Source: Methylopila sp. M107 (GTDB lineage Bacteria; Pseudomonadota; Alphaproteobacteria; Rhizobiales; Methylopilaceae). Taken from it: 64,000 bases of DNA. This document shows, in pieces, positions 50,606-64,000 of this stretch. Made by a program: the position numbers and the translations under genes. The stretch spans positions 1,840,176 to 1,904,175 of the forward strand of contig NZ_ARWB01000001.1 of the NCBI RefSeq assembly GCF_000384475.1, in the 5' to 3' direction. Below the pieces are notes generated by a model, which saw only the letters and a program-made list of their open reading frames with translations, was not told the origin of the DNA and ran no database searches. Numbering within the stretch: position 1 is the first letter of the stretch; the number at the start of each line of letters is the position of its first letter.

Positions 50606-50693
50606 CGTCGTCCTCCGGCTTGACCGGAGGACCCACGTCAGACGTGGAACTCGACGCCCGAGTTAGGTCCTCCGGTCAAGTCGGAGGACGACG
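50606..50693. repeat. Palindromic repeat between mgsC and gmaS (family B variant)
   Basis: CGTCGTCCTCCGGCTTGACCGG and the complementary CCGGTCAAGTCGGAGGACGACG face each other around about 45 bases that include a CCACGTCAGACGTGG inner palindrome. A hairpin in the mRNA between mgsC and gmaS could stabilise the upstream message. Confidence 0.7.
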
Positions 50694-50769
50694 GAGAGGG
50701 TGTCGCGGCCGGTTCGCGAAGCCCCATTGGTGCGACCGGCCCAGTTGCGGGCCAAAATGGGGAACAGAC

Positions 50770-52062
50770 ATGGCGTCCGATCTTGCCAAAGCCGCCAAGG
50801 ATCGCGGCATCAAGTATTTTCTCATCTCCTACACCGACCTGTTCGGCTCGCAGCGCGCGAAGCTCGTGCCGGCGGCCGCGATCGGCGGCATGCAGAAGTC
50901 GGGCGCGGGCTTTGCAGGCTTCGCAACCTGGCTCGACATGAGCCCGGCCGATAGCGACCTCTTCGCCAAGCCCGATCCCGACAGCCTGATCCAGCTGCCG
51001 TGGAAACCGGAAGTCGGCTGGCTCGCGGCGGACCTGTGGATGGACGGCAAGGAGGTCGAGCAGGCTCCCCGAAACCTGCTGAAACGCCTGATCGCGAAAT
51101 CGGGCCACGAGATGAAGTCCGGCGTCGAGCCCGAGTTCTTCATCGTCAACGCCGACGGCTCCGCGATCTCGGACGGCGCCGACACCGCCGAAAAGCCCTG
51201 TTACGACCAGCAGGCGCTGATGCGCCGCTATGCGGTCGTGACCGAGATCTGCGACTCCATGATCGCGCTCGGCTGGGGCCCCTACCAGAACGACCATGAG
51301 GACGCGAACGGCCAGTTCGAGATGAACTGGAATTTTGGGCCCGCGCTCCAGGTCGCCGACCAGCACGCCTTCTTCAAGTTCATGGCGAAGTCGATCGCCG
51401 AGAAGCACGGCCTGCGCATCACCTTCATGCCAAAACCGTTCGTGAACCTCACCGGCTCCGGCTGCCACGTCCACGTCTCGCTCTGGAACGGCAAAAACAA
51501 CCTGTTCGAGGACCCGAAGGGCGAGCTCGGGGTCAGCCAGGACGCCTACCACTTCATCGGCGGTTTGCTGCACAACGCCGACGGCATCTGCGCGCTGACC
51601 AACCCGACGGTGAACTCCTACAAGCGCATCAACGCGCCGCGCACGGCCTCGGGCGCGACCTGGGCGCCGAATTCGGTGACCTACACCGGCAACAACCGCA
51701 CCCACATGATCCGCATCCCGGACTCGAACCGGATCGAGTTCCGCCTGCCCGACGGCGCGGTGAACCCCTATCTCTTACAGGCGGCGGTGCTGGCCGCGGG
51801 CCTCGACGGCATCGACAATAAGCGCGATCCCGGCAAGCGCCTCGACAACAACATGTACACCGACGGCCACAAGGTGAAGAACGCCAAGAAGCTGCCGCTC
51901 AACCTGCTCGACGCGCTGCGCGCCTTCGAGAGCTCGAAGGCGGCGCGGACCATGTTCGGCGACGAGTTCGTGACCGGCTACGCCAAGCTCAAGATGGTCG
52001 AGTGGAACAACTACACCCGCCACCTTACCCAGTGGGAGCGGGACAACACGCTGGATTGCTGA
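50770..52062 (+). CDS. gmaS: Gamma-glutamylmethylamide synthetase / glutamine synthetase type III-like
   Basis: A 430-residue glutamine synthetase fold (GlnT/GmaS group, shorter than GlnA). Visible: GVEPEFFIVN, NDHEDANGQFEMNWNFG, HGLRITFMPKPFVNLTGSGCHVHVSLW (glutamate and metal site) and RIEFRLPDGAVNPYLLQAAVLAAG. The enzyme ligates methylamine (or ammonia) to glutamate with ATP. The mgsABC neighbourhood makes gamma-glutamylmethylamide synthetase more likely than plain GlnT, but the same four-gene order occurs as glxBCD-glnT in rhizobia. The ATG at 50770 has GGGGAAC ahead. Confidence 0.8.
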   Translation: MASDLAKAAKDRGIKYFLISYTDLFGSQRAKLVPAAAIGGMQKSGAGFAGFATWLDMSPADSDLFAKPDPDSLIQLPWKPEVGWLAADLWMDGKEVEQAPRNLLKRLIAKSGHEMKSGVEPEFFIVNADGSAISDGADTAEKPCYDQQALMRRYAVVTEICDSMIALGWGPYQNDHEDANGQFEMNWNFGPALQVADQHAFFKFMAKSIAEKHGLRITFMPKPFVNLTGSGCHVHVSLWNGKNNLFEDPKGELGVSQDAYHFIGGLLHNADGICALTNPTVNSYKRINAPRTASGATWAPNSVTYTGNNRTHMIRIPDSNRIEFRLPDGAVNPYLLQAAVLAAGLDGIDNKRDPGKRLDNNMYTDGHKVKNAKKLPLNLLDALRAFESSKAARTMFGDEFVTGYAKLKMVEWNNYTRHLTQWERDNTLDC

Positions 52063-57704: not shown

Positions 57705-58304
57705 TCAGGCCGCTCCGACCAGGATCGCGACGCCGGCGAGCCCCGCTGCGGCGCCCGCGGCCCGCGTGGCCAGCGGGCCATATATGCGGGCCAGCTGGCC
57801 ACATGTCGCGCCAAAGCCGACGCCAAGAGCATGTAGGGCCGCGGTCGCCAGCATGAAGCCGGCCGCATAGGCCGCGCCGCCGGCCGCGCCGGGCATCTCG
57901 GCCCCATGGGCGTAGCCGTGGAACACCGCGAAGGCCCCGACCAGCGCCATCGCGGCCGCGACCGGCGCCTTCACGCCGAACGCGACCGCGGCGCCCAGCA
58001 CAATGACGGAGAGCGCGATCGCGGTTTCGACGAAGGGGAGGTTCACTCCCGCCATGCCGAGCGCGCCGCCCGCCGCCATCACGCCGACGAAGGTTGCGGG
58101 CACGAGCCACACCGCGCGGCCGCCGAGCTGGAAGGCGAAGACGCCGACCATCACCATGGCGAGCACATGGTCGAGCCCGTCGACCGGATGGCCCGCGCCG
58201 GCGGCGAAGCCGACCGTGTCGCCATGCCCGGTATGGGCGAAGGCGATCGAGGGGACGAGCGCAGCCGCAAGGCCGAGCGCGGGGCGGAGAAGACGGAGGG
58301 TCAT
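57705..58304 (-). CDS. HupE/UreJ-family nickel permease
   Basis: A 199-residue membrane protein of the HupE/UreJ family, with an N-terminal signal-like helix (RLLRPALGLAAALVPSIAFAH) and the signature HPVDGLDHVLAMVMVGVFAFQLGG; six helices follow. HupE/UreJ proteins import Ni2+ (or Co2+) for hydrogenase or urease. Here no hydrogenase or urease gene is near; the next nickel enzyme candidate is the guanidine hydrolase-like gene 1 kb upstream. The ATG at 58304 has GGAG about 10 bases ahead. Confidence 0.9.
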   Translation of the reverse strand: MTLRLLRPALGLAAALVPSIAFAHTGHGDTVGFAAGAGHPVDGLDHVLAMVMVGVFAFQLGGRAVWLVPATFVGVMAAGGALGMAGVNLPFVETAIALSVIVLGAAVAFGVKAPVAAAMALVGAFAVFHGYAHGAEMPGAAGGAAYAAGFMLATAALHALGVGFGATCGQLARIYGPLATRAAGAAAGLAGVAILVGAA

Positions 58305-58333
58305 GGACGATCTCCAGAAATGCGGGGTCGCGC

Positions 58334-58858
58334 TCATGCGCGGGTTTCGAAATGGGAGGCCTGGGTGCGGTCGATGAGCGCCCGGGCGGCTGCGAAATCA
58401 AGGCGTTGGACGGATTTCCCGTCGTGATACAGGAAGGCGAGACGACGCCGTCGCGAGGTCATCTTGGCCGGCAGCGGATCGTAGCGCACGCCCTGCCCGC
58501 CGAGCAGCGGCGCGACCGCGCCGACGTCGACCATGTCCTCGGTCTCGACCCTGAGCAGGTGGAAGCGTTTTCCGGACGCGTCCTCGCCGACGAAGGCGAC
58601 GCCGGCGACGCGCAGGAAACTCGTCACGTCCGACGCGTTGGAGAACGCCTCGACGAAGGCCGCCTCGACGAGGTCGAGATCGGTGGTCTTGGGGTCTTCC
58701 GGCGCGTGCTCGTGGCCGTGCGGAAGATGCGGCGTCTGCCACTGCACGGTTTTTGCGGGCGCATGATTGTGGCCGTGCCCGTGGGAGTGGGGGGCGGCGT
58801 GGGCGTGGGAATGCCCTCCCCCGCCATGGTCGTGATGGTGGTCGTGGCCGTCATGCAT
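58334..58858 (-). CDS. Histidine-rich putative nickel chaperone, novel
   Basis: A 174-residue cytoplasmic protein whose first 51 residues contain 18 histidines (DGHDHHHDHGGGGHSHAHAA, then HSHGHGHNH and HGHEH). The rest is an alpha/beta domain (DLDLVEAAFVEAFSNASDVTSF, VAGVAFVGEDASGKRFHLLRVE, LGGQGVRYDPLPAKM) without motif of HypA, HypB, SlyD or UreE that I can recognise. The gene lies between the guanidine hydrolase-like and HupE genes and is 29 bases from the latter. Nickel storage or delivery is inferred from the histidines and neighbours. GGAGG precedes the ATG at 10 bases. Confidence 0.65.
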   Translation of the reverse strand: MHDGHDHHHDHGGGGHSHAHAAPHSHGHGHNHAPAKTVQWQTPHLPHGHEHAPEDPKTTDLDLVEAAFVEAFSNASDVTSFLRVAGVAFVGEDASGKRFHLLRVETEDMVDVGAVAPLLGGQGVRYDPLPAKMTSRRRRLAFLYHDGKSVQRLDFAAARALIDRTQASHFETRA

Positions 58859-58921
58859 GACCCGGGACCCTCCTTTCTTCACCTCTCCCCTGTGGCGACC
58901 GGCGCGAAACCAGCCGCCTCG

Positions 58922-59285
58922 GATCCTCCTCCGCGAAGCGGGGGAGGGGGACCATGCGTAGCATGGTGGAGGGGGCGCGCTTCAGGATGAGGCTCTCCCG
59001 GAGACCCAGGCGCTTTACGCCTCGCCCCCTCCACCGCTTCGCGGTCCCCCTCCCCCGTGCTCCGCACGGAGGAGGATCAAGAAGCGACGCCTCCGCAGGC
59101 GCATTGAAGGAAGGGCGCGACGCCGGTCGCCCCTTCTCCCGCTCGCGGGAGAAGGTAAGGATGAGGGGGCGTGGCGCAGACATTTTTGAAGAGAGCCCGT
59201 CCGCTTGGGAAGCGCACTCTGCTGAACCCTCAGCGCTAACGCCCCTCACCCTTACCCTCTCCCGCCTCGGCGGGAGAGGGGGACG
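58922..59285. repeat. Two large palindromic repeats between the hydrolase and His-rich genes (family C)
   Basis: The first, 58922-59078, starts GATCCTCCTCCG and ends CGGAGGAGGATC, with long inner arms rich in GGGGGAGGGG and CCCCCTCC. The second, 59128-59285, starts in CCCCTTCTCCCGC with GGGAGAAGG and ends GGGAGAGGGGG. Together they fill almost all of the 477-base gap (58859-59335). They probably separate the hydrolase from the downstream genes and may need an extra promoter for the latter. Confidence 0.7.
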
Positions 59286-59335
59286 GAGGAGGCGTCGCGC
59301 TTTCGCCTTCAGCGCCTGTTCCAACAGCCCGCCCA

Positions 59336-60541
59336 TCAAAAGCTCACCGGCTTGTCGATGATCGACTTGTGCTTGCCGAGGGTGCCGTGCGCCACCATCG
59401 AGCCGAGCGCCTCGACGATCACGCGGGTGCCGAACAGCGCGGTGATGTCCGAGGTGTCGTAAGGCGGCGAGACCTCCACCACCTCGAAGCCGCAGATGCC
59501 CGGCGCGCAGACGAGGCCGAGAATCTTCAGCGCCTCGCGCGGCAGGAAGCCGCCGGGCTCCGGCCAGCCGGTGCCGGGCACGAAGCCGCAATCGATGCTG
59601 TCGACGTCGAACGAGATGTAGACGGCGTCCGTCCCCTCCCAGGCGAGGTCGAGCGCGATCTCGGCGGTCTTCTCGAGTCCGAACTTTTCGATGTCCTCGA
59701 TCGTCAGCACGTTGGTCTCGCGCCGGCGCCCTTCGGCCACGCCGTAGCGCGGGACCTGCCAGCCGCCGATGCCGAGCTGCACGAGATTCTTCGGCGAGAC
59801 GTTCGGCAGGTTCGTCGCCCAGAACCAGGGCGTGGTGTGCATCCGCTCGTCGAGGTCCTTCTCCTGGATGTCGATGTGCCGGTCGAAGTGGATGATGCCG
59901 ATCTTCTTCGAGGTGCATTCGGCGATGCCGCGGACGCACGGGAAGCCGATCGAATGGTCGCCGCCGATCATCACCGGCAGCGCGCCCGAGGACGCGACGT
60001 GGGAGACGCCGCGCGTGATCTGGTCGAAGCTTTTTTCGAGGTTCGCCGGGATGGTGAACACGTCGCCGGCGTCGCAAAGCGTCATCTGCTCGCGAAGATC
60101 GATGCCCATCTCGTAATTGTAGGGGGTGTAGAGCGCCGAGATGCGGCGCACCCCTTGAGGCCCGAAGCGGGTTCCGGGGCGGTAGGTGGTGCCGCTATCG
60201 AACGGAATGCCGAGCACGGCGGCGTCGTATTTGCCGACGTCGCGGACGTTCTCGACGTAAGGCGCCTTCATGAAGGTGTTGATGCCGGCGAAATGCGGAA
60301 GCTCGCCGCGCGCGAAGGTCGGGATCGACTTGTCCGTGATCGAATCCGCGCCGGGCAGGCCCATGTCGAGGGCCCACTGCTGCTCCTTCCGCCACTGGGT
60401 CTCGGGAAGATACTGCTCCTTGTCGAGCGCCTTCCAGCCTTGCGTGTCCATCTTGGAGAAGTCTGGGTGGTGGCGGCGCTGGCGCTCGCGCGAGGGCGCA
60501 AGTCCGGCGACGCGGCTGCGGCGTGCGGGTGACGGGATCAT
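59336..60541 (-). CDS. gdmH: Guanidine hydrolase-type ureohydrolase (agmatinase family, extended N-terminus)
   Basis: A 401-residue ureohydrolase. The metal ligands are GGDHS (H196), FDRHID (D220, H222, D224) and SFDVDSID (D312, D314). The F-D-R-H variant of the usual D-A-H motif and an N-terminal extension of about 100 residues before the KYDAAVLGIPFDSGTTYRPG core set it apart from plain agmatinases and match the nickel-dependent guanidine hydrolase group (cyanobacterial Sll1077/GdmH). It sits behind a guanidine-type ABC transporter and before nickel genes. AAGGAGAAG precedes the ATG. The main alternative is a guanidinobutyrase-type enzyme. Confidence 0.82.
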   Translation of the reverse strand: MIPSPARRSRVAGLAPSRERQRRHHPDFSKMDTQGWKALDKEQYLPETQWRKEQQWALDMGLPGADSITDKSIPTFARGELPHFAGINTFMKAPYVENVRDVGKYDAAVLGIPFDSGTTYRPGTRFGPQGVRRISALYTPYNYEMGIDLREQMTLCDAGDVFTIPANLEKSFDQITRGVSHVASSGALPVMIGGDHSIGFPCVRGIAECTSKKIGIIHFDRHIDIQEKDLDERMHTTPWFWATNLPNVSPKNLVQLGIGGWQVPRYGVAEGRRRETNVLTIEDIEKFGLEKTAEIALDLAWEGTDAVYISFDVDSIDCGFVPGTGWPEPGGFLPREALKILGLVCAPGICGFEVVEVSPPYDTSDITALFGTRVIVEALGSMVAHGTLGKHKSIIDKPVSF

Positions 60542-60632
60542 TCGGCTTCTCCTTGGGTAAGGCTGGCCGTCTTCCCGAGGCTTTCAGTCGGGAACGTCAT
60601 CAGCGGGGAATTCGTAAAGCGCGACGCCGCTA

Positions 60633-61196
60633 TGGCGCGACGCCTACCGTCCCCCTCCCCCTTGTGGGGAGGGTAAGGGTGGGGGAGGTCCAGAACGGCG
60701 CGAGAGGTTCGGCGTCGAGCGGCGTCAGCGAAGGCGCTCCATTCGGAACCAACCCCACCCCTAGCCCCTCCCCGCAAGGGGGAGGGGAACAGGTCGCGCG
60801 AAACCGTGCTTTTCGTCGTGGCGCGACGCGCTCTTGTCCCGGCCTTGAGCCGGGACCTAGAACCGCAAAGGCGTCCAAAACCACGCACCAACGGCCCAGT
60901 TTTCAGGGCGGCCGTCAGCGCGTCTGGGTCCCGGCTCAAGGCCGGGACAAGAGAGCTGAACTCAGCTCGATACGCGATCCCGGCTCGGCCTTCGGCCGTC
61001 CGGGATGACGCGATGCAGGCAGTGGCGCGACGCCGACCGTCCCCCTCCCCCTTGCGGGGAGGGTAAGGGTGGGGGTGGTTCAGAACGGCGCGAGAGGTTC
61101 GGCGTCGAGCGGCGTCAGCGAAGCCGCTCCATTCGGGACCACCCCCACCCCTAACCCCTCCCCGCAAGGGGGAGGGGAACAGGCCGCGCGAAATCG
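60633..61196. repeat. Duplicated 174-base repeat with a palindrome between (families C and B)
   Basis: 60633-60806 and 61023-61196 are nearly identical 174-base direct repeats, 390 bases apart, each itself a palindrome of CCCCTCCCCCTT and GGGGGAGGGG. Between them 60831-60953 is a family B palindrome with perfect 26-base arms (CTCTTGTCCCGGCCTTGAGC start). The whole block fills the gap between the ABC ATPase gene and gdmH (60542-61202). Confidence 0.8.
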
Positions 61197-61202
61197 CGCC
61201 CC

Positions 61203-61976
61203 TCACGCCACCGCCTCGCTCGCCCGTTTCGGAAAGCCCAGCACCGGCACTGGCCCGCCGCGCGTCAGGTCGAGGTCGTAGGTGATGCGCGCGCCGAAGC
61301 GGCCAGGCGCCTGCGGGTCGTGGCGGACCTTGTCGAACGCCACCACACGCGTGCCGAGGTTGAACGCCTCCTTCAGGTCGTGCGTCACCATGATCACCGT
61401 CATGCCGAGCCGCTCCCAGAGCGGCTTCAGCAGCGCGTGCATCTGGGTCCTGGTGCCGGGGTCGAGCGCGCCGAAGGGCTCGTCGAGCAGCAAAACCTTC
61501 GGGTCCTTCGCCAGCGCCTGCGCGATCGCGAGGCGTTGCTGCATGCCGCCCGACAGCGCGCTCGGATGCTTGTCGCGATGGGGGCCAAGCCCGACCGCGA
61601 CGATCAGCTCCTCGCTCTTCTCAAGCGCCGCTTTCCGCGCCGAGCCGAACAGCCGGCCAAGGAAGCGGGACTGGCCGAGCTCATAGGCGAGCAGCACATT
61701 GCCGAGGACGGTCAGATGCGGCAGCACCGAATAGCGCTGGAACACGACGCCCCGGTCGGCGCCCGGCTCGTCCGGCAGCGGCTTGCCGTCGAGCAGCAGT
61801 TTTCCGCGGGACGGCCGATCCTGGCCCAGCACCATGCGCAGAAACGTGCTCTTGCCGCAGCCCGAGGGACCGACGACCGACAGGAACGACCCCGAGGCGA
61901 TCTCGAGGTTGAGGTTCTCGATGACGATCTGGTCGCCGAACTCCGCCCAGACGTTTTCGACCGAGATCGCGCTCAT
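61203..61976 (-). CDS. Guanidine-type ABC transporter ATPase
   Basis: A 257-residue NrtD/SsuB/TauB-like importer ATPase. Walker A GPSGCGKST, signature LSGGMQQRLAIAQAL, Walker B VLLLDEPFGALD and H-switch VTHDLKEAF are intact. The YELGQSRFLGRLFGSARKAAL insertion and the C-terminal RITYDLDLTRGGPVPVLG end are seen in the urea-carboxylase/guanidine-associated branch. Its start overlaps the permease stop (ATGA). It couples ATP hydrolysis to uptake through the permease. Confidence 0.9.
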   Translation of the reverse strand: MSAISVENVWAEFGDQIVIENLNLEIASGSFLSVVGPSGCGKSTFLRMVLGQDRPSRGKLLLDGKPLPDEPGADRGVVFQRYSVLPHLTVLGNVLLAYELGQSRFLGRLFGSARKAALEKSEELIVAVGLGPHRDKHPSALSGGMQQRLAIAQALAKDPKVLLLDEPFGALDPGTRTQMHALLKPLWERLGMTVIMVTHDLKEAFNLGTRVVAFDKVRHDPQAPGRFGARITYDLDLTRGGPVPVLGFPKRASEAVA

Positions 61977-62794
61977 CGCCGCTCCCCCACATAGGCCCAA
62001 GGGAAGGCCGAGCGCGACAGCTTGGCAAGCGCGAAGTCGAGCACGAAGGCGATCAGCGTGATCCAGGCGACGTAAGGCAAAATGACGTCCATCGCGAGAT
62101 AGCGGCGGACGAGGAAGATGCGGTAGCCGAGCCCTGAGTCGGAGGCGATCGCCTCGGCCGCGATCAGGAACAGGAAGGCCGGACCGATCTGCAGCCGCAC
62201 GAGCTCGATCAGCCGCGGCATGACCTGCGGCAGCACCACGCGCACGATCGTGGTCCAGGTCGAGGCGCCGAGCGTCTGGGCTTTCACCAGTTGCTCGGTC
62301 GGGATCGCCTGAACCGTCATGGCGATGTCGCGGATGATCGGCGGCGCGACACCGATGACGATGAGGATGACCTTCGACAGCTCGCCGAGGCCGAAGATGA
62401 TGAACAGGATCGGCAGGATCGCCATCGGCGGGATCATCGAGATGACCGCGACCAGCGGCCCGCCGCCGGCGCCGACGACCGGCAGCACGCCGAGCGCGAC
62501 CCCGAGGATCAGCCCGAGCAGGGTCGCGAAGCCGAGGCCCAGCGCGAGGCGCTGCAGGCTGGAAAGCGTGTCGGCGACGAGCGTGATCTCGCCGGTCCGT
62601 TTGTCCGGCTCGAACGCCATGCGGGACGCCGTCGCCGACATCTCCGAGATCGGCGGCAGCAGCTTGTCGTTCGGGTTCGCGGCGCGCCGCTCGGCGGAGC
62701 CGATGACGTAGACGAAGGCCAGGATCACGAACGGGATGATGGCGAGCAGCAGCCGCCCTCCCCTGCCCGGCTGGATGTTCATCGCGCGGCGCAT
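61973..62794 (-). CDS. Guanidine-type ABC transporter permease
   Basis: A 273-residue importer permease with about six helices and the BPD-type EAA loop (EQLVKAQTLGASTWTTIVRVVLPQVMPRL). It has a periplasmic stretch after the first helix (NDKLLPPISEMSATASRMAFEPDKRTGE), typical of the nitrate/taurine/guanidine transporter group. It sits between the substrate-binding protein gene and the ATPase gene on the minus strand. Substrate assignment follows from the neighbours. Confidence 0.88.
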   Translation of the reverse strand: MRRAMNIQPGRGGRLLLAIIPFVILAFVYVIGSAERRAANPNDKLLPPISEMSATASRMAFEPDKRTGEITLVADTLSSLQRLALGLGFATLLGLILGVALGVLPVVGAGGGPLVAVISMIPPMAILPILFIIFGLGELSKVILIVIGVAPPIIRDIAMTVQAIPTEQLVKAQTLGASTWTTIVRVVLPQVMPRLIELVRLQIGPAFLFLIAAEAIASDSGLGYRIFLVRRYLAMDVILPYVAWITLIAFVLDFALAKLSRSAFPWAYVGERR

Positions 62795-62813
62795 GAGTGA
62801 CCCCTACTGGCCC

Positions 62814-62927
62814 CGTCATCCCGGACGGCGGCGAAGCCGCCGAGCCGGGATCGTTCTCCGGAGATGAAGAAGCCGCGTTCCGTCCTGAGGACGATCCCGG
62901 ATCGGCCTTCGGCCGTCCGGGATGACG
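62814..62927. repeat. Palindromic repeat between the binding-protein and permease genes (family B)
   Basis: CGTCATCCCGGACGGCGGCGAAGCCGCC and GGATCGGCCTTCGGCCGTCCGGGATGACG face each other, each with its own inner hairpin, around about 40 bases. It lies in the operon between the substrate-binding protein and the permease and would be transcribed. A stable hairpin there may keep binding-protein mRNA in excess. Confidence 0.75.
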
Positions 62928-62948
62928 CTTTCCCCCTCACGAGAAGCC

Positions 62949-64000
62949 TCACAGCTTCCCGTCGGCCGCCAGCTTCATGTAGGTCGGATCGAAGCGCAGC
63001 TTGACGTTCGCGGCGTCGCCGAGCGTCTTGCCGCCCGCGAAGCCGATGCCGACCGCGTCCTTGGACTTCGCGCCCTCGCCCAGCAGGCCGTGGTCGAACG
63101 AGAAGGTGCGGACGAGGTCCATCGTCTTGATCAGGTCCGGGCTCTCGGTGAAGGCGACGGCGTCGGCCGCCTTGTCGAACAGCTTGGTGGCGGCGAGCTG
63201 GGACTCGAAGCCAGCAAGGTCGGTGCCGGACTGCTTGGCCATCGCCTCCTTGGCGGCCTTGTCCTTCATCGCGGCCATGGTCTCGTACCAGATGCCGGCG
63301 AGCGCCTTGCCGAAGTCCGGATTGTCCTTGAGCGTCTTGGTGTTGACGCCGAGCGTGTCGATGATCTCGCCCGGGATCTTCGATGAGTCGAACAGCAGCG
63401 TCGCGCCGGGCTCGGCCTTCACCTCGGCGAGCAGCGGGTTCCAGGTGACGACCTGTTCGACGTCCGGCGCCTTGAAGGCGGCGACGATGTCGGCGTCGGA
63501 GGTGTTCACGACCTTGACGTCCTTCTCGGCGAGGCCGTTCGCCTCGAGCCCGCGGGCGAGCAGGTAGTGCGAGACCGAGAGCTCGACGAGGTTGATGCTC
63601 TTGCCGGAAAGCTCCTTGATCGACTTCGCGGTCTTCGACACGACGCCGTCATTGCCGTTGGAGAAGTCGCCGACGATGACGGCCGTGGTGTCGACGCCGC
63701 CGGCGGCGGGGATCGTCAGCGCGTCCATGTTGGTCAGCGTCACGCCGTCGAACTTGCCGGCGGTGTACTGGTTGATCGACTCCACATAGTCGTTGATCTG
63801 CGTGACCTTGATCTCGATGCCGTATTTGTCGGCCCACTTCTTCACGATGCCGGCGTCGGCCGCGTAGGGCCACGGCATCCAGCCGACATAGATCGTCCAG
63901 GCGATCTCAAAACTCTTCTTCGGCGCGGCCTCGGCCGGGGTGAGCGCGGCGGGTCCCGTCAGGACTGCGGCCGCGAGGGCGAGGGCTGAGATCAGACGGC
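62949..64000 (-). CDS. Guanidine/urea-carboxylase-type ABC transporter substrate-binding protein (partial)
   Basis: The frame is open to the right end of the window; only a few N-terminal codons are missing. The visible start is a signal peptide (LISALALAAAVLTGPAALT), then FEIAWTIYVGWMPWPYAADAGIVKKWADKYG and VTLTNMDALTIPAAGGVDTTAVIV. The family is the TIGR03427-type periplasmic protein of urea carboxylase regions, whose transporters are now linked to guanidine. It binds the substrate in the periplasm and delivers it to the permease. A guanidine riboswitch, if any, would lie beyond the window end. Confidence 0.87.
   Translation of the reverse strand, partial: RLISALALAAAVLTGPAALTPAEAAPKKSFEIAWTIYVGWMPWPYAADAGIVKKWADKYGIEIKVTQINDYVESINQYTAGKFDGVTLTNMDALTIPAAGGVDTTAVIVGDFSNGNDGVVSKTAKSIKELSGKSINLVELSVSHYLLARGLEANGLAEKDVKVVNTSDADIVAAFKAPDVEQVVTWNPLLAEVKAEPGATLLFDSSKIPGEIIDTLGVNTKTLKDNPDFGKALAGIWYETMAAMKDKAAKEAMAKQSGTDLAGFESQLAATKLFDKAADAVAFTESPDLIKTMDLVRTFSFDHGLLGEGAKSKDAVGIGFAGGKTLGDAANVKLRFDPTYMKLAADGKL

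Follow-up and report, generated by a model that had tools for sequence, protein, structure and literature searches.

HisR, a histidine-rich protein linked to the guanidinase of Alphaproteobacteria and a candidate for its nickel supply

How might a nickel-dependent guanidinase be loaded with its metal in the absence of HypA and HypB? The question is raised by six genes at one end of the window analysed here, a stretch of 64,000 nucleotides from Methylopila sp. M107 (contig NZ_ARWB01000001.1, positions 1840176-1904175 of a complete, one-contig genome of 4.45 Mb). All six lie on the minus strand between positions 57705 and 64000 and, in the order given by a first-pass annotation of the sequence, encode the binding protein, permease and ATPase of an ATP-binding cassette (ABC) transporter, a ureohydrolase, a His-rich protein and a HupE/UreJ nickel permease (Table 1). 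We refer to the His-rich protein downstream of the enzyme as HisR, a label coined in this analysis. HisR is strictly linked to this guanidinase in Alphaproteobacteria. On balance we favour reading the locus as a riboswitch-controlled guanidine operon in which HisR would be a guanidinase-specific nickel-delivery protein replacing HypA/HypB. Operons of this kind are already known from other guanidinase systems; the new part is HisR.

The enzyme and its riboswitch

The ureohydrolase had been described as an agmatinase-family enzyme with a long N-terminal extension and the F-D-R-H metal motif, a description that holds. The arginase family PF00491 begins at residue 106, so that about 105 residues precede the domain, and the motif is F219-D220-R221-H222. 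Alignment places a ligand at each of the six positions that we take to be the metal ligands of the arginase fold (H196, D220, H222, D224, D312 and D314). The top relatives in the PDB are GdmH (7esr/7oi1, 548 bits) and the guanidinase of Nitrospira inopinata (9fek, 527 bits), whereas the next family scores 171 bits and true agmatinases 131 bits or less. Excerpts of PMC11410670 name Thr97 and Trp305 as guanidinase specificity residues (chain numbering is shifted by 2 relative to the numbers of that paper), and the pocket alignment that had been proposed as a check finds both equivalents kept, as T119 and W326.

The phylogeny points the same way. In a tree of 53 rows, 41 alphaproteobacterial enzymes form one group (100/99), which joins 7esr and 9fek (98/90), and the guanidinase group is split (100/100) from 3nio, 3nip, 1gq6 and the genome's own second ureohydrolase. 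The enzyme thus stands with the two characterised guanidinases and apart from guanidinobutyrase, guanidinopropionase and proclavaminate amidinohydrolase, in a tree for which the program warns of long branches meeting and whose rows do not include true agmatinases. Judged by its sequence, the enzyme is a GdmH-type guanidinase, and PDB ranks, residues and tree led us to reject an identity as guanidinobutyrase, guanidinopropionase or agmatinase. Public records label its relatives only 'agmatinase family protein', which would be compatible with a true substrate other than guanidine; with the guanidinase pocket residues kept, we regard another small guanidino compound as very improbable. Judged by this enzyme, the closest named relatives listed are an uncultured Methylopila (97%), Hansschlegelia zhihuaiae (93%) and Methylopila jiangsuensis (92%).

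The first-pass annotation had also suggested a search for a guanidine (ykkC) riboswitch beyond position 64000, and one was found there. The RF00442 aptamer, the genome's sole match to this family at E<=0.001, sits on the same strand 98 nucleotides ahead of the ATG of the binding protein. The sequence 3' of the aptamer offers a possible hairpin enclosing GGGAG and AUG (z -2.1, with 9/200 shuffles equally good), and on this prediction the riboswitch may control translation start. Taken together, the operon very probably encodes a pathway of guanidine uptake and hydrolysis, guanidine import, guanidine hydrolysis and nickel dependence being ascribed by homology. Of the grounds for refutation named in the first-pass annotation, a tree position with guanidinobutyrase and a missing riboswitch did not materialise, which supports its reading of the module.

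HisR accompanies the guanidinase in Alphaproteobacteria

HisR adjoins the guanidinase in 80/80 named loci, with E values of 2e-28 or better. These are the top 80 among at least 555 confirmed relatives, hence close relatives of the query, and are by title Alphaproteobacteria or unclassified Pseudomonadota. The median gap from the stop of the enzyme to the start of HisR, with start codons picked by a simple rule, is 4 bases (-11 to 440; at most 60 in 70/80). The tryptophan motif of the specificity pair is present in 88/88 loci (the 80 named loci and L006-L013) and the exact threonine motif in 86; of the other two, L099 and L134, the latter still has Thr at the aligned position.

Sampling by genome gave the same picture. 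HisR lies directly downstream of the enzyme in all 24 loci of the Trp type drawn from relatives and class samples (at least 72% identity, own locus included). In a class sample of 385 genomes the enzyme occurs at E<=1e-80 in 13 (11 Trp-type, one Thr-type in G138 and one partial in G124), and HisR occurs in 13, namely all 11 with the Trp-type enzyme plus two truncated pieces. In a phylum sample of 398 genomes, which shares G000 and G166 with the class sample, 7 carry the enzyme, and these 7 are also the ones with HisR. In the HisR match of G516 a flagged stop is simply where the protein ends. On plasmids, the enzyme is carried by 11 of 72,556 (E<=1e-60); HisR, searched with two queries at E<=0.001, is on 7/7 alphaproteobacterial plasmids that carry the enzyme and matches none of the other plasmids. 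The two truncated pieces come from enzyme-free genomes. At L155 (G423) the beginning of a binding protein runs into the HisR piece, possibly an assembly fault, and at L156 (G184) a start-less fragment follows a stop behind an FtsX-type permease gene. Both are just pieces, and we rejected them as a contradiction of the pairing.

All three ABC genes lie upstream in 68 of the 80 named loci, some of them in 3 and none in 9, counts that use the window proteins as queries, so that distant versions may be missed. HisR stays beside the enzyme in all 9 loci without a neighbouring ABC transporter, and in the four of these that were examined the riboswitch lies 92-123 bases ahead of the enzyme.

A guanidine-I riboswitch is present in 39/39 named genomes searched, above the curated cut-off in 37, and lies upstream of the operon on the sense strand in 38, as judged by coordinates with contig identity not checked singly; the exception is L100. 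Among the 24 genomes of the guanidinase-HisR set it is upstream in 19 (below cut-off in one, G394) and unplaceable in 2, being on another contig, and 3 give no match (G048, G155 and G375). In G048, locus L018, the match to the enzyme does not begin until residue 107 and is followed downstream by a HisR match; the N-terminal part of the enzyme may be broken or mis-assembled. Seven genomes of the same genus or family (G002, G003, G005, G006, G014, G015 and G016) have riboswitch matches and no guanidinase at E<=1e-60, and their riboswitches may serve a carboxylase route or an exporter. MicroRNA matches in the RNA family scan were set aside as repeats or chance.

Related ureohydrolases in which Thr replaces the guanidinase Trp occur at L019, L030 and the plasmid locus L166. 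The enzymes of L019, L030 and L031 contain an internal His-rich insert, that of L031 being partial and stopping before the Trp position, with its contig ending inside the enzyme. HisR was not found near L019, L030 or L031 (15.0, 14.0 and 3.3 kb of sequence, respectively), and their genomes gave no guanidine-I riboswitch match.

Nickel delivery by HisR and its alternatives

The first-pass annotation held that HypA/HypB are replaced here by another solution, and the genome fits this claim. It has no match to PF01155 (HypA) and no HypB: its four proteins of PF02492, the family in which we presume HypB to belong, are UreG and three CobW/GTPase-like proteins, one of them above the CobW cut-off. Beyond our own genome, to which the HypB search was confined, PF01155 was not found in 18/24 genomes with guanidinase and HisR (own included) or in 21/39 named ones, two sets that overlap. 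The His-rich neighbour is the enzyme's fixed partner, but HupE is optional: of the 80 named loci 21 encode it, 17 of them directly after HisR and 4 at another place, and we rejected it as the conserved nickel part.

HisR proteins are 111-187 residues long. The 80 named ones hold 8-33 His (median 20), a median of 16 within the first 45 residues, and this His-rich half contains a nearly invariant GHN together with H44. A C-terminal domain of about 115 residues (roughly 55-165) follows. AlphaFold2 predicts this domain confidently, as helices and then strands; modelled alone, it has a mean predicted local distance difference test score (pLDDT) of 88 and a predicted template modelling score (pTM) of 0.73, 85/125 residues reaching 90 or more. 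Since the tail is nearly lost or relocated in some members, what stays constant in HisR is the folded domain rather than the His tail; the HisR of L129, for instance, is low in His.

The domain has no relatives that we could detect. The window HisR matches no Pfam or NCBIfam family at E<=0.001, a PDB profile search has a best E of 0.48, and Foldseek searches have best E values of 0.65 and 0.79. Kinship with ZrgA, DmeF, PRK10019 and similar proteins was rejected, as only 1-3/48 members gave such matches (E 0.0025-0.1), and we read these as low-complexity matches to His. In both annotated plasmids inspected HisR is labelled hypothetical. Titles and abstract beginnings in the literature yielded no His-rich partner of a guanidinase, although the papers on GdmH discovery or the riboswitch could mention one. 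In Stappiaceae and Limimaricola a small membrane protein follows HisR, with sub-threshold matches only (TrbC, DUF4148 and DUF6732).

We propose the following course of events. Guanidine would turn the operon on through the guanidine-I riboswitch, the ABC transporter would bring guanidine in, and the nickel-dependent guanidinase would cleave it to urea and ammonia, the urea being finished off by the neighbouring urease. HupE would import nickel, the His-rich tail of HisR would bind it and the C-terminal domain would pass it to the guanidinase, the job of HypA/HypB-type proteins for the Synechocystis enzyme. Context and composition suggest both nickel binding and delivery by HisR. We lean towards a role in nickel delivery, given its tie to a nickel-type enzyme, its composition, the genomes without HypA and the presence of HupE beside about a fifth to a quarter of loci.

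Urease offers a different source of nickel. On the opposite strand and heading away from the riboswitch lie the urea transporter genes urtABCDE, all five above their cut-offs, followed by ureC and ureG, both above cut-off, in a scan of the urease cluster that covered ureC, ureG and a UreE-like protein. The urea made by the guanidinase hence has a route to ammonia. The UreE-like protein scores 134 bits, just below the cut-off of 144, and ends in a short HGHAHE tail. With UreG and this protein encoded a few kilobases away, the urease accessory proteins could load the guanidinase and HisR could do no more than store or buffer nickel, its N terminus being His-rich like those of storage proteins. 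This explanation sits poorly with the fact that HisR goes with the guanidinase rather than with urease in general, as no intact HisR occurs in the sampled enzyme-free genomes. Moreover, members that have nearly lost the His tail retain the HisR domain, for which a protein devoted purely to storage would have no use. We consider it unlikely that the urease proteins do the loading.

A second alternative treats the His tail as an accessory: HisR would serve the guanidinase as a structural partner or stabiliser, in a role like that of the second subunit in the heteromeric metformin hydrolase. The strict pairing in Alphaproteobacteria, the predicted fold without known relatives and a conserved domain whose invariant residues are not typical ligands would all be in keeping with such a role. 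The number of His residues in the named proteins and the nearly invariant GHN and H44 of the His-rich half argue for metal instead, and the guanidinase of N. inopinata is described in excerpts of PMC11410670 as a homohexamer without such a partner. A purely structural role appears improbable to us.

Several observations weigh against nickel delivery by HisR. The four residues invariant in 48 aligned domains are F, D, P and P, which do not make a typical nickel site; 70/80 HisR proteins contain no Cys; the HisR of L029 (111 residues) has one His and that of L026 five; and in L111 the His tail is at the C terminus. By PDB profile and Foldseek searches HisR is unlike any known nickel chaperone. 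HypA is present in 6/24 and 18/39 genomes with guanidinase and HisR: of the six, five are on another contig and one, in G027, is about 255 kb off, and the 18 are on a contig other than that of the riboswitch, which in G816 is itself unplaceable at the operon. Four of the HypA matches among the 39 named genomes are partial (64-68 positions). Four actinobacterial plasmids carry the enzyme, of the Trp type in three (L162, L163 and L165), and HisR is lacking from the roughly 15 kb that surround it; for these three HisR is missing within about 7 kb as well as from the rest of the plasmid. A guanidinase can thus manage without HisR, which belongs to the alphaproteobacterial version. Finally, across 68 loci the distances of HisR correlate with those of the enzyme at 0.80 and with those of the ABC proteins at 0.34-0.38, but the high value reflects in part one deep split. 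Within the halves the correlation is 0.58 (29 loci) and 0.86 (39 loci); in the smaller half HisR and permease reach 0.56 and enzyme and binding protein 0.63, and in the larger half HisR and ABC proteins reach 0.68-0.69. Hence, we do not use the pooled correlation as main evidence. We see an even chance that HisR represents a novel class of nickel metallochaperones, of unseen fold, dedicated to the guanidinase and replacing HypA/HypB across Alphaproteobacteria.

Of the actinobacterial plasmids, L162 and L163 are from Rubrobacter and have no annotated HypA/HypB in the stretches seen; the neighbours of the R. indicoceani enzyme are a sodium:solute symporter, formamidase and urease genes.

Long His-rich stretches in a short protein or tail, like that of HisR, are found in Hpn of Helicobacter and in the His-rich tails of HypB and UreE. 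HisR differs from these in its link to a guanidinase and in possessing a conserved C-terminal domain of its own, for which no relatives were detected. The operon resembles that of Synechocystis GdmH (Sll1077) in its guanidine-I riboswitch, an ABC importer of the same kind (sll1080-1082 there) and an enzyme type with the Thr/Trp pair and the metal ligands. It differs in that Synechocystis encodes HypA/HypB-like proteins, whereas here HisR follows the enzyme and HupE is added in some loci. According to an excerpt of PMC8390497, guanidinase-type genes are frequently joined in operons by hypA, hypB and ABC genes. The N. inopinata operon shares the riboswitch, the enzyme clade and the lack of HypA/HypB nearby, but has an APC permease where the operon described here has an ABC importer; HisR and HupE are present in the latter. 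In metformin degraders, hypA-hypB and hupE flank nickel ureohydrolase genes (excerpt of PMC11399263). Those metformin/dimethylguanidine hydrolase operons are alike in that a HupE gene comes directly after the nickel ureohydrolase genes, and unlike in using HypA/HypB and two enzyme subunits; against the window enzyme, their chains reach no more than 131 bits.

The authors of PMC11410670, in the excerpts available, call nickel loading of the guanidinase of the comammox organism N. inopinata unclear, and HisR is a direct candidate for the nickel supply of guanidinases without HypA/HypB. If it does act in this way, HisR would illustrate a route by which nickel reaches a guanidinase without the help of GTPase chaperones. 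Among the Alphaproteobacteria that carry HisR are nodule bacteria, Mesorhizobium and Sinorhizobium for example. Genes at present annotated as 'agmatinase family protein', 'putative urea ABC transporter' and 'hypothetical protein' are likely to form one guanidine-use operon.

Layout of the operon and its surroundings

The coordinates of the operon are collected in Table 1. The TIGR03427 score of the binding protein bears out its earlier description as of the urea-carboxylase/guanidine type, and its ATG is at 64007, 7 bases past the window end. A gap of about 480 bases separates the guanidinase gene from that of HisR. The presence of the His-rich protein was correctly called, with a start at 58882; judged from its relatives, the start is most likely 58858 (MHDGHDH...).

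Table 1. Features of the guanidine operon (window positions)
Feature	Position	Strand	Evidence
Guanidine-I riboswitch aptamer	64105-64209 (contig 1904280-1904384), just past the window end	-	RF00442, 88.6 bits, gathering 63
ABC substrate-binding protein, guanidine/urea-carboxylase type	62949-64000	-	TIGR03427, 547 bits, cut-off 334
ABC permease	61973-62794	-	PF00528
ABC ATPase	61203-61994	-	PF00005
Intergenic gap of about 660 bases with repeats, between ATPase and enzyme	60542-61202		Two 177-nucleotide copies, 94% identical
Predicted guanidinase (GdmH type), 401 residues	59336-60541	-	PDB ranks, residues, tree
HisR, His-rich N terminus and conserved C-terminal domain; candidate nickel-delivery protein	58334-58858	-	Adjoins enzyme in 80/80 loci
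HupE/UreJ nickel permease	57705-58337	-	PF04955, 186 bits

The 177-nucleotide repeats occupy positions 60633-60809 and 61023-61199. A palindromic repeat of 37 nucleotides is also present between operon genes in two copies (97%), at 60975-61011 and 62892-62928, and both kinds resemble dispersed intergenic repeats. In the urease cluster an RF02514 (5' ureB small RNA) match runs antisense within ureC (L004:603-892, minus strand) and possibly reflects just coding conservation. Elsewhere in the window, a type III glutamine synthetase is encoded on the plus strand at 50620-52062 (TIGR03105, 647 bits, cut-off 470).

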